Source: a virus
Virus record (IMG/VR): IMGVR_UViG_3300034117_000797
Span: 1-63,929 of that record
DNA: 63,929 nucleotides
Strand: one strand, 5' to 3'
Shown here: piece after piece, positions 6,938-56,788 of the stretch
How positions within the stretch are numbered: position 1 is the first letter of the stretch
Layout: each line of letters opens with the position of its first letter
Notes under the pieces: generated by a model
Seen by the model: only the letters and a program-made list of their open reading frames with translations
Told to the model about the DNA's origin: nothing
Databases searched by the model: none
Position numbers and translations under genes: made by a program

Positions 6938-7417
6938 ATGAAAAACTATTTTGTAAAAATGGAAGGCAAACTATTTCTAATGTACCGTGACAGATTCTTC
7001 CATTTTGATATGAATGATGTAGACCCAGACGATTTTTGGGACTCATTCACATACAATGGTGAGGAGTTAGATATTTACTACTACCCCGTATTAGATTCGT
7101 TGACGATATACAATGTACACGATGAGACAGGTCAAATAGACACATCTCAATTCGAGACGGCTGAATATCTTGGCAATCTAACTAATAAGTATGTAGTCAT
7201 AGATGTGGCACAAAGGTCTAATAGCGATGAATACATAAGAAGGTACAAGGACAGCGGAGACATAATTATGTATGATAGTTACACTTTGGCTCGTACAAAT
7301 GTTATCCCTACCGAAGCAGTAGTACTTGTAGCAGGTCTATATGAATTGAACTTAGAAACATTATTAACACAAATGAAAAACAATTATGAACGAGACAACG
7401 CATTTAGAGGTGCTTAA
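6938..7417 (+). CDS. Hypothetical protein, 159 aa
   Basis: Begins MKNYFVKMEGKLFLMYRDRFF and is rich in Tyr, Asp and Asn. It looks like a beta-rich acidic protein with no membrane segment. It follows the amidotransferase by 30 nt. Its start MKNYFVK resembles METKNFFVK of the amidoligase, but the rest does not match. The end overlaps the next gene by 32 nt. Function unknown. Confidence 0.75.
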   Translation: MKNYFVKMEGKLFLMYRDRFFHFDMNDVDPDDFWDSFTYNGEELDIYYYPVLDSLTIYNVHDETGQIDTSQFETAEYLGNLTNKYVVIDVAQRSNSDEYIRRYKDSGDIIMYDSYTLARTNVIPTEAVVLVAGLYELNLETLLTQMKNNYERDNAFRGA

Positions 7418-10119: not shown

Positions 10120-10127
10120 TACATTTG
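10120..10127 (+). promoter_or_regulatory. -7 promoter element TACATTTG of RNA element 1
   Basis: Matches TAnnTTTG; no good TTTG upstream. Transcription would begin about 4-6 nt later, at the foot of the first hairpin of the RNA element that follows. Confidence 0.55.
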
Positions 10128-10130
10128 TAC

Positions 10131-10233
10131 GTCTCACGCTACCAAGTTAGACACACAGACTAAGATTTTACTTGTTCTATTGGTTGGAACGAACCCTCAG
10201 TTGTGGCATGGTAGCGTGGACTGAGGGTTTTTT
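10131..10233 (+). ncRNA. Candidate kissing-loop RNA, element 1
   Basis: Three hairpins in order. H1 is GTCT (10131-10134)/AGAC (10149-10152) with a 14-nt loop. H2 is GTTC (10174-10177)/GAAC (10187-10190). H3 is a 9-bp perfect stem AACCCTCAG (10192-10200)/CTGAGGGTT (10221-10229) running into six T, like a terminator. The loop of H1 holds CACGCTACCA (10135-10144), which is perfectly complementary over 10 bp to TGGTAGCGTG (10209-10218) in the 20-nt loop of H3. A second element with the same layout lies at 55634-55731. It could be a stand-alone small RNA or an attenuator. No known family recognised. Confidence 0.65.
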
Positions 10234-10503
10234 ATTGCCCTTAACATAGGGTGTTGTATGCCATTGAACATCATTATCAAAAACAATGTCTCACAATGAA
10301 CGCTTGTTCCGAACAACAAACCCTGCTCTGTCTAACGCTTGACAACAGGTACTGCATACCGAAAGGTAATGGAATCAAGTGAGCCAAATAGCCCATTGCT
10401 TAGGCAAGAATAAATAAGAAAGGGTCGCAGAGGGAAGTGTCATTGGTTGGGAAATCTTAATTAAATGCTGTGTATGGTATATGCAGTATAAAAGCGAAGC
10501 TAT
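10234..10503 (+). other. Non-coding interval after RNA element 1
   Basis: 270 nt with no convincing gene. A 28-codon frame from 10296 has no support. CCCTTAACATAGGG (10238-10251) can form a small hairpin. It may be the 5' leader of the gene at 10504 if transcription reads through element 1. Confidence 0.4.
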
Positions 10504-19638: not shown

Positions 19639-19707
19639 ACTCATGTAGCTTAATTGGAAAAGCAGATGCGATAGTTTCCGTTGTAGGTTCGAGTCCTGCC
19701 ATGAGTA
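19639..19707 (+). tRNA. Degenerate tRNA (anticodon not assignable)
   Basis: The acceptor ACTCATG (19639-19645) pairs with CATGAGT (19700-19706). The D arm is GCTT-AATTGGAA-AAGC (19648-19663) and the T arm GTAGG-TTCGAGT-CCTGC (19683-19699). Only 19 nt lie between D and T arms, where 23 are expected, and no 5-bp anticodon stem can be made. No CCA is encoded. This looks like a truncated or tRNA-mimic gene. Confidence 0.6.
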
Positions 19708-54480: not shown

Positions 54481-55314
54481 TTACACAGCTGGACAACCAA
54501 GGTATGCTGCTGCATTTGCAACAGAACTTGCGAAAGAACCGTTCAAGATTGAAGTCAATCGAGCAACAGTTGCCGCAGCACCTGCATCACCAGAGTTAAT
54601 GTAAACAAGAGCGTTTACTGGCTTAACAACTTGTAATCCTGTTACAGCGCTGTGGCGAACCATTTTGCGGTAACGAATAATGTGACGGCTGTAAGTGTTT
54701 CCTGTAGCGTAAGGGTTGTTACCTGAGTAACCAACAACCTCATTGTTAGAACCAACTGGAGAAACCCAAGGAAGTGTGTTTGTAAGAGTAGCTCCAGCAG
54801 GTGCTGAAACCTCCAAAGAACCACCAAGAGCAGAATCAGCCATAATCAACAATGTATCAGTTGCGTTAGTGTAAGTCGCAGTGAAAGCAGCATTGTTGTC
54901 AGCGTTGATTTGAGCAGCAAAAGCAGCACCAATTCCATCAACAGTTGGAGGAGTAGTTCCACCATCTCCAAAACCAACTGTGTAAGTACGAGTTTGGTAG
55001 ATAGCTCCAGTTTCTTGACCACCTCCGAAGAAGTTAACAAGGTAAGGAACGTGTACAGTCAAAACGTAAGTTCTGTTAGGAGTCAATGTAACACCTGTCA
55101 ATACAACAGACCAGTTGTTTACTACTCCAGGGCTGTAAGCTGCATAGCTATAACTTAACAAGTCATTTGCTCGTACAACAATAGAAGAATTTCCACCTTC
55201 GTCCAAAACTGTTAAAACTCCCGCTGCAAGAGTAACGTCAACTCCAGAAGAAGGAGTGTTCAGAATCGTAACCGAATCTGCTGTGATTTGAGGCAATCTG
55301 TAATTAAAAGCCAT
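54481..55314 (-). CDS. Beta-rich virion protein (capsid decoration or similar), 277 aa
   Basis: Ala/Thr/Val-rich, no Cys in the first 270 residues, ordered beta pattern (SGVDVTLAAGVLTVLDEGGNSSIVVRAN), typical of a capsid decoration or fibre protein. First gene after the divergent control region with its own terminator, so likely produced at high level. Exact role unproven. Confidence 0.6.
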   Translation of the reverse strand: MAFNYRLPQITADSVTILNTPSSGVDVTLAAGVLTVLDEGGNSSIVVRANDLLSYSYAAYSPGVVNNWSVVLTGVTLTPNRTYVLTVHVPYLVNFFGGGQETGAIYQTRTYTVGFGDGGTTPPTVDGIGAAFAAQINADNNAAFTATYTNATDTLLIMADSALGGSLEVSAPAGATLTNTLPWVSPVGSNNEVVGYSGNNPYATGNTYSRHIIRYRKMVRHSAVTGLQVVKPVNALVYINSGDAGAAATVARLTSILNGSFASSVANAAAYLGCPAV

Positions 55315-55598: not shown

Positions 55599-55629
55599 TT
55601 TGGTGGTTAAAAAAATGTGTCTAACTTTG
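55599..55629 (+). promoter_or_regulatory. Promoter of RNA element 2 and nuclease operon
   Basis: TTTG (55599-55602), 19-nt spacer, TAACTTTG (55622-55629): a full Bacteroidota-type promoter, as at 770-800. Transcription would start at the foot of hairpin H1 of RNA element 2. Confidence 0.75.
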
Positions 55630-55633
55630 CTAC

Positions 55634-55731
55634 ATCAGAATACGGACTGATTAAAGAATTTAGGTTTCGTTCTACCCAACGAAGTAACCCTTGCTCTTAT
55701 GTGCCGTATCACAGAAGAGTGAGGGTTTTTT
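55634..55731 (+). ncRNA. Candidate kissing-loop RNA, element 2
   Basis: H1 is ATCAG (55634-55638)/CTGAT (55647-55651), loop AATACGGA. H2 is TTCGTT (55666-55671)/AACGAA (55678-55683). H3 is a 13-bp stem AACCCTTGCTCTT (55686-55698)/AAGAGTGAGGGTT (55715-55727), with two G-T wobbles, then a T run. ATACGG in the H1 loop (55640-55645) is complementary to CCGTAT (55704-55709) in the H3 loop. Same layout as 10131-10233 although the sequences differ. The nuclease operon starts 11 nt later, so it may be an attenuator. Confidence 0.6.
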
Positions 55732-55742
55732 ATTTGAAAGAC

Positions 55743-56036
55743 ATGGAAACATTTAGAGTAGTGTGCGTTAACTCAAACGCAAGACCAGCAGACTTCCCTG
55801 CACACCTTTGGATTGATAAAGGAGAAATTTACACAGTAGTAGATGCAAAGTACCTAGCCAAGCAACACATGGCGATGGGATACAAACTGTCAGAGATTGA
55901 ATTGCCTGATGATTGCAAATACAAATTCTTTTTAGCAAACAGATTCAGACCATACACAGACGATGACGCAGAAGCAGAGGCTGCTGTTGAATCATTGTTG
56001 CAAGAGGTAGAAGAATTCCAAGCAGTAGAGCTTTAA
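55743..56036 (+). CDS. Hypothetical protein, 97 aa
   Basis: ATG at 55743 gives METFRVVCVNSNARPADFPAHLWIDKGE. A longer upstream frame crosses the RNA element and is rejected. Beta-rich start and acidic C-terminal helix. First gene after RNA element 2, so its expression may depend on readthrough. Unknown function, 2 nt before the nuclease gene. Confidence 0.7.
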   Translation: METFRVVCVNSNARPADFPAHLWIDKGEIYTVVDAKYLAKQHMAMGYKLSEIELPDDCKYKFFLANRFRPYTDDDAEAEAAVESLLQEVEEFQAVEL

Positions 56037-56038
56037 TT

Positions 56039-56788
56039 ATGTTTGAAGTATTCTCTGAGTTAAATAAGTTCAACGGAATTGTATTTGATGAGTCTGACCA
56101 CTCGTACTTCTACGATGGATTACGATGCACTTCCGTTACTACGTTGCTGTCTAAATTCAAAAAGCCATTTGAAACAGAAATAATCGCCGCAAGATATGCA
56201 ACGAAAAACGGTTTAATCGCCGCAGATGTAATTCAAGAATGGGAAGACATCAAGAACGCATCCACATCAAAAGGTACTGAACTGCATAAATACGCAGAGT
56301 TGAAGTTTACAAATAAGCACTATGAAGTAGACAGAAGCACTGGAGCGCAAGATTTGACTTTCATGATTGATAATTTCTACAAAGATTATATCAACACCCT
56401 ATTGTTAGTAAGAGCAGAGCTTGTGGTCGGAGACAAAGACCTGCGCATCTGCGGAATGCTTGACAAGCTATTCTATAATGTCGTTGATAGTGAGCTTCAG
56501 ATATGGGATTACAAGACAAACAAAGAGATGGCTACTCACAGTAAGTACAAGAATAAAATGACTAATGGTCTTCAACATCTTTCCGAATGTGAGTACAATA
56601 CATACTCACTACAGTTGGGGGTCTATAAAAAAATAATAGAGAAAAACACCAATTTAAGAATTGGAAAATCATATATTTGTTGGGTTAACGACAAGAACTC
56701 TAACTATGTAGTCATAAAGACTGCAGATTTAGATAAGGAAGTCGATATTGTTCTTAACTCATCAATAGACAATGACTACATCTTCTAA
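56039..56788 (+). CDS. PD-(D/E)XK (RecB/Cas4-type) nuclease, 249 aa
   Basis: SKGTELHKYAE (77-87) gives the upstream His83, RAELVVGD gives a likely Glu (126), GMLDKLF the Asp142 and LQIWDYKTNKE (153-163) the D-x-K (Asp157, Lys159): the usual order of the RecB/Cas4-like restriction fold. It would process DNA ends in recombination or repair, perhaps with the Rad52-like protein. No helicase domain and no 4Fe-4S cysteine cluster were seen. Confidence 0.85.
   Translation: MFEVFSELNKFNGIVFDESDHSYFYDGLRCTSVTTLLSKFKKPFETEIIAARYATKNGLIAADVIQEWEDIKNASTSKGTELHKYAELKFTNKHYEVDRSTGAQDLTFMIDNFYKDYINTLLLVRAELVVGDKDLRICGMLDKLFYNVVDSELQIWDYKTNKEMATHSKYKNKMTNGLQHLSECEYNTYSLQLGVYKKIIEKNTNLRIGKSYICWVNDKNSNYVVIKTADLDKEVDIVLNSSIDNDYIF

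Follow-up and report, generated by a model that had tools for sequence, protein, structure and literature searches.

Two leader elements in a phage genome

The window, by which we mean the whole stretch of DNA analysed here, is a 63.9-kb virus record of a tailed phage, with portal and terminase genes found in it. One of its proteins matches CrAss_Ring_2 in Pfam (E 5e-4), which hints at a remote relationship to crAss-like phages, and its portal protein has no match among named phages. At 19639-19707 Rfam reports a tRNA that ARAGORN does not call. The subject of this study is a pair of short plus-strand elements, E1 and E2, in which a promoter is followed by three hairpins and a run of U. Directly after E1 comes a conserved noncoding RNA (class I below; 10237-10503, plus strand) that is not in Rfam, and E2 stands at the head of an operon with an exonuclease gene.

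E1 begins with a promoter -7 element, TACATTTG, at 10120-10127, which follows the TAnnTTTG consensus of Bacteroidota promoters (PMC6847099, PMC7366714). Mapping in F. johnsoniae places the last G of this element at -5 (PMC6847099), so we take the fifth base after that G as the predicted +1. The first hairpin, H1 (GTCT[CACGCTACCAAGTT]AGAC, 10131-10152), starts within 1 nt of this position. A middle hairpin, H2 (10173-10191), is followed by H3 (10194-10227), a terminator-like hairpin with the stem CCCTCAGT/ACTGAGGG, a large loop and a U run from 10228 to 10233. The initial annotation had claimed that H1 directly follows the TAnnTTTG element and that its loop is exactly complementary over 10 bp to the loop of H3, and both claims are borne out: segment a, CACGCTACCA (10135-10144), is the exact 10-bp complement of segment a', TGGTAGCGTG (10209-10218), within the H3 loop. 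In E1 the H3 stem itself can contribute 3 more bp to this pairing, and when 10121-10245 is folded the long-range helix is in competition with H3.

E2 lies at a divergent junction, with a gene on the minus strand (54481-55314) to its left. Its promoter has a -33 TTTG (55599-55602) and the -7 element TAACTTTG (55622-55629), the only plus-strand TAnnTTTG between the divergent gene and the E2 operon. H1 (ATCAG[AATACGGA]CTGAT, 55634-55651) begins exactly at the predicted +1 and is followed by H2 (55666-55683), H3 (55686-55727) and a U run (55728-55731, continuing from 55726). The operon opens with a gene for a 97-aa protein without a Pfam match (55743-56036, plus strand), whose start codon is about 15 nt past the H3 stem, followed by the exonuclease gene (phrog_298; 56039-56788, plus strand). 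As the initial annotation had it, the order of hairpins and the H1-H3 loop pairing recur in this second element (55634-55731), here as a 6-bp match between ATACGG (55640-55645) and the apical H3 loop sequence CCGTAT (55704-55709). This match is much weaker than the 10 bp of E1 and is unconvincing alone; because 6-nt matches are common, E2 by itself is weak evidence.

The minimum-energy folds of both elements beat dinucleotide shuffles (z = -2.8 for E1 and -3.7 for E2). As in an intrinsic terminator, a G+C-rich stem is followed by a U run in E1, in E2 and in the family described below, though terminator scans of the standard small-loop type call neither H3.

A family with compensated loop pairing

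We collected 152 loci from related virus contigs, using the portal and exonuclease as queries; metagenomic contigs may include chimeras. Matches to E2 by blastn are confined to close relatives, and at the equivalent position in distant relatives we find other leader sequences with the same architecture. Many more came from a search by layout: a TAnnTTTG, then within about 130 nt a terminator hairpin with a U run, scored by the complementarity of the first 30 nt to the terminator loop. The curated family comprises 74 non-identical elements from many Bacteroidota phages with 48 different pairing strings, a collection curated partly by hand in that clearly coding or random matches were removed by eye.

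For the statistics we use a separate, uncurated and dereplicated set of 56 promoter-plus-terminator units (from genomes that are related to one another). In 41 of the 56 the RNA 5' end is complementary to the terminator loop over 6 nt or more, compared with 7.6 (maximum 19 in 1000 rounds) when loops are swapped among units, while a direct-match control yields 7 units at the same length. With at least 7 nt required, the numbers are 33 units and, with loops swapped, 2.1.

The initial annotation had predicted further homologues with paired changes, and we find them in two groups. Among nine homologues of E1, all seven kissing pairs have changed on both sides, every one of the 63 cells is paired (63/63) and there are no one-sided changes, while the stems are mostly invariant; sliding the partners against each other destroys the pairing. 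In five leaders of HNH genes, 100% of cells are paired (35/35 for the kissing cells), with double-sided changes in H1, in the kiss and in H3. These sets hold related sequences, so the cells are not independent events, although distinct pair types are numerous. From the sequences at hand we conclude that the loop pairing is non-random across the family and that covariation is near total in the E1 homologues. The excess over swapped loops and the covariation together uphold the proposal of a conserved RNA structure in which a 5' hairpin contacts the loop of a terminator hairpin.

Going beyond the initial annotation, we find that the loops are the most variable part of the element. The p-distance is 0.50 in the kissing columns, compared with 0.07 in the H1 stem and 0.10 in the H3 stem, and in pairs of elements with 92% identity over the remaining sequence the loops agree at only 1-3 of 7 bases (L267 and L270, at 92%, have just 1/7 H1-loop bases in common). 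One exception is L243, where an H1 loop of CCTCACC faces an H3 loop with AGTGTGGAAAG and complementarity is incomplete; a natural recombinant, an assembly chimera and a tolerated mismatch are possible readings. This E1-type element sits about 280 nt upstream of a class II marker (see below).

The U run behind H3 is present throughout the family. A purine occupies the predicted +1 in 51/60 elements, and of the 52 elements that have H1, 32 begin its stem within 1 nt of that base. In about eight of the 60 we do not find H1, and in five of these eight the pairing segment itself starts at +1. The middle hairpin, described earlier as part of the structure, is present in E1 and E2 and is dispensable in the family: it is missing from the HNH leaders and from the subtype lacking H1. 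Segment a' lies in most elements inside the H3 loop, clear of the stem arms, and the loops either leave 8-10 nt spare on the 5' side or are just large enough for the kiss. Some H3 loops have a 5' half rich in pyrimidines; the idea that it mimics the 16S rRNA 3' tail was set aside, as mere pyrimidine richness is the likelier explanation. No third copy of the pairing segment is suggestive, except in one genome (G011, 7302-7411; L154), where a third copy, CATCTCAC, ends immediately ahead of the next gene's start codon, which would give the H3 loop a choice of two sites to pair with.

The statement that the element belongs to no recognised family agrees with our search of Rfam 15, in which neither gathering nor permissive thresholds give a credible family match for the elements (the only hits, elsewhere, are two tRNAs). 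DNA similarity to E1 is absent among named phages, a scan of half-genomes of Fpv1, phi14:2, phi38:1 and crAss001 finds no element, and the literature searched (without preprints and most subscription journals) contains no description of such an element. Two cultured phages of Flavobacterium columnare do carry it. FCL-2 (NC_027125, 37475-37595) has the H1 TGTAG[ATCATCCAC]CTACA with GTGGATG in the H3 loop; in FCV-1 the locus and the neighbouring gene upstream are shared with FCL-2, the pair is 8 bp long (GTAGAGAG/CTCTCTAC), the H1 stem differs and the U run is poorer. E1 and E2 are thus members of an undescribed RNA family found in many uncultured and some cultured Bacteroidota phages.

Genes and noncoding RNAs behind the leaders

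A second point beyond the initial annotation is that the elements are 5' leaders, placed ahead of either an operon or a noncoding RNA. The coding contexts include the small gene and exonuclease of E2 and its relatives, a small gene upstream of an exonuclease in another clade (L141-L150), HNH/NUMOD4 endonuclease genes (by Pfam), a helicase-like gene in L251 (judged by eye from the translation) and, in FCL-2, a Phg_2220_C protein. In most of these the start codon comes 9-20 nt past the terminator stem. HNH/NUMOD4 homing endonuclease genes with their own promoter and kissing-loop terminator leader occur in L063 (15824-16375), G009, G011, G012, G018 and L269 (3229-3330), and the L063 gene is on the strand opposite to the structural operon. 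Some relatives share the promoter and operon yet lack a leader hairpin (L080, L088), or their terminator shows no clear kiss (the L090/L104 group), from which we conclude that the element is not indispensable. The region upstream of the exonuclease gene in L090, L096, L097 and L104 has a different terminator, tRNA-like sequences and repeated blocks (CCCGAAGTACAAGGGATCGTAG...CAACTCTTTCGG).

In the E1-type contexts the next ORF is 273-334 nt away, and between lies a conserved noncoding RNA. Two such classes of about 270-330 nt follow E1 and its homologues, one class per locus. Class I (about 270 nt; the window, L265-L274, G003, G007 and G019) has the marker GGTCGCAGAGGGAAGTNTCA and conserved blocks, and its downstream genes vary among phages while the RNA stays. 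Class II occupies the same place with the pattern GATG..GGGT-hairpin, AACTCAACGGAAGYAA, hairpin, ATCTAACAAAAGYAA (G012, G020, G018, G017, G009 and G026; L217, L226, L234, L238, L239, L241, L245, L251 and L260), and is probably a novel structured RNA. Neither class matches Rfam, and named phages give weak short matches only. In about 85,000 prokaryote genomes the class II markers find nothing, and those of class I find one chance match in coding DNA (L275).

To obtain an independent view of the association, the noncoding RNA loci were fetched by these short markers and the upstream side was then inspected. With the loci from the G genomes included, a paired-loop element precedes each of the 10 class I loci and 15 of the 19 class II loci; of the remaining four, L243 has the mismatched element, while L222 and L253 (identical in sequence) and L227 have none. 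Near-identical E1 modules stand ahead of class I (L265) and of class II (L260), so E1 is a module separable from what follows it. In the four loci checked, no TAnnTTTG lies between the E1-type element and its noncoding RNA.

Candidate functions and known systems

How might such a leader work? On balance, we think that the leaders probably act as switchable promoter-proximal terminators, that is, attenuators. Transcription would start with H1 at nucleotide +1; about 60 nt on, the RNA would form an intrinsic terminator (H3 and the U run), whose loop would find its pairing partner in the H1 loop or, where H1 is absent, in the 5' end of the RNA. The default product is probably an RNA of about 100 nt with both ends in one kissing complex, and in the other state the polymerase would read through into a replication/recombination operon, a homing-endonuclease gene or a conserved noncoding RNA. 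The promoter, the hairpins, the U run, the compensated loop pairing and the place before genes or noncoding RNAs can be read directly from the DNA; from these we infer that H3 terminates, that read-through is regulated and that the loops pair on the nascent transcript, adjusting the balance between the two outcomes.

The argument for conditional termination comes from E2. Because E2 lies at a divergent junction and no other TAnnTTTG precedes the operon, every transcript of the E2 operon should contain H3; such transcripts must cross it, and H3 cannot then be an absolute stop. Yet the stem and U run are kept even where no ORF follows, which points to conditional or partial termination. What would throw the switch may be host factors or uncharacterised phage proteins. 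NusG (PF02357) is found in 0/15 phages searched and the two Q families covered, PF06530 and PF03589, in 0/14 (the records may be incomplete); the multi-subunit RNA polymerase motif DFDGD is absent from the window, and G025 alone has such a string.

The location of a' bears on how kiss and terminator relate. Since in most elements it keeps to the H3 loop and leaves the stem free, the two can coexist, unlike ordinary antiterminators, which are mutually exclusive with their terminators. In E1, where the pairing extends 3 bp into the stem, a mutually exclusive fold is also possible, and this leads to a second reading, to which we give a minor but real chance: the H1 loop seizes the emerging H3 loop and delays or prevents closure of the stem, such that the polymerase reads through by default and terminates if H1 does not fold or is already bound. 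The long-range helix that competes with H3 in E1 fits this, as does the fact that a' emerges ahead of the 3' stem arm, but spare or kiss-sized loops with a' off the stem are what most of the family has.

The fast change of the loops asks for a cause. One unlikely but appealing idea is that the loops are self/non-self tags, with terminated leader RNAs, each bearing the two complementary loops, kissing the nascent leaders of the same phage in trans rather than in cis. This would explain why the kissing loops change fastest of all parts and still stay complementary. Were it true, read-through would respond to the number of like genomes per cell, as in ColE1 copy control, and related phages would diverge in their loops to escape each other's RNA.

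A shade less likely still is an independent, stable, trans-acting small RNA of about 100 nt whose kiss locks the ends against degradation, with downstream genes served by leaky read-through. Both ends in the kissing complex, the length, and the RNA's own promoter and terminator suit this picture; the start codon 9-20 nt behind the stem, the E2 operon with no other promoter and the placement before unrelated genes do not, and since the loops are not conserved there is no conserved trans target. Improbable, in our view, is a 5' mRNA cap or translational control, in which the leader guards the 5' end and/or H3 limits ribosome entry and the U run is an unstructured initiation region. The short distance from H3 to AUG in coding contexts speaks for it, as does translation in F. 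johnsoniae, which is tuned by start-codon structure in the absence of SD sequences (PMC6847099), but loci in which a noncoding RNA rather than an ORF follows retain the U run just as well. Very improbable is a DNA-level role as the operator of a phage repressor beside the promoter, with the two segments as paired inverted half-sites: they do form an inverted repeat (+5 to +15 and about +80), but their positions are fixed relative to the RNA hairpins and the H1 stem covaries too, and we reject the model because the loop pairs differ between elements of one genome. Chance complementarity picked by eye, which could by itself account for the 6 bp of E2 (swapped loops reach at least 6 in about 14% of units), is refuted by the family-wide excess and the compensatory change and keeps a negligible probability.

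The family matters because its members stand before key operons, with strong compensatory evidence behind them, and little is known of regulation in Bacteroidota phages. As cultured phages, FCL-2 and FCV-1 make the element open to experiment, and loop change that is fast yet compensated raises a testable question: what drives loop diversification?

Several known systems share parts of this design. In phages P4 and P1, a short phage RNA, the immunity RNA, pairs in the leader and is linked to premature termination; these are separate RNAs acting in trans on repeated complementary sites. The put antiterminator RNA of HK022 is a hairpin at the start of phage early transcripts that influences RNA polymerase, and it is not known to have a terminator-loop kiss. 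In the lambdoid tR'/6S arrangement a short leader RNA is the default product, and we know of no kissing loop in the lambdoid pR' leader. As in that leader, whose terminator is under Q (for the antitermination mechanism see PMC7171158), a promoter and then an intrinsic-type terminator precede the operon here; here, however, the two Q families are not found, and several operons and a noncoding RNA carry separate modules. Operon antitermination of the NusG/LoaP type differs in that no phage-encoded NusG paralogue is found (0/15).

The short loops of ColE1 RNAI/RNAII are fully complementary, with specificity in a loop sequence able to diversify (PMC9458437), and our loops are likewise fully complementary, Watson-Crick and variable (7 nt in the E1 homologues). 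Unlike RNAI and RNAII, both segments lie on one strand within about 85 nt, pair in cis rather than as sense and antisense, and are tied to a terminator. Among riboswitches that attenuate transcription, those with loop-loop contacts or pseudoknots, such as the purine and preQ1 classes (PMC10907184, PMC11625349), share the 5' leader, the tertiary loop contact and the terminator platform. They differ in that here the kissing sequence is hypervariable and the terminator loop is one of the partners; moreover, no conserved ligand-binding core, such as the aptamer of a metabolite riboswitch, is shared by the E1, E2, HNH and FCL-2 elements, in which only the stems and the pairing are kept. The literature that we searched (again without preprints and most subscription journals) has no account of a terminator loop kissing the opening hairpin of its own transcript, nor of loops evolving in this way. 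On the features compared, the leaders belong neither to the lambdoid Q system nor to ColE1, and they are best placed among the promoter-proximal attenuators of phages.
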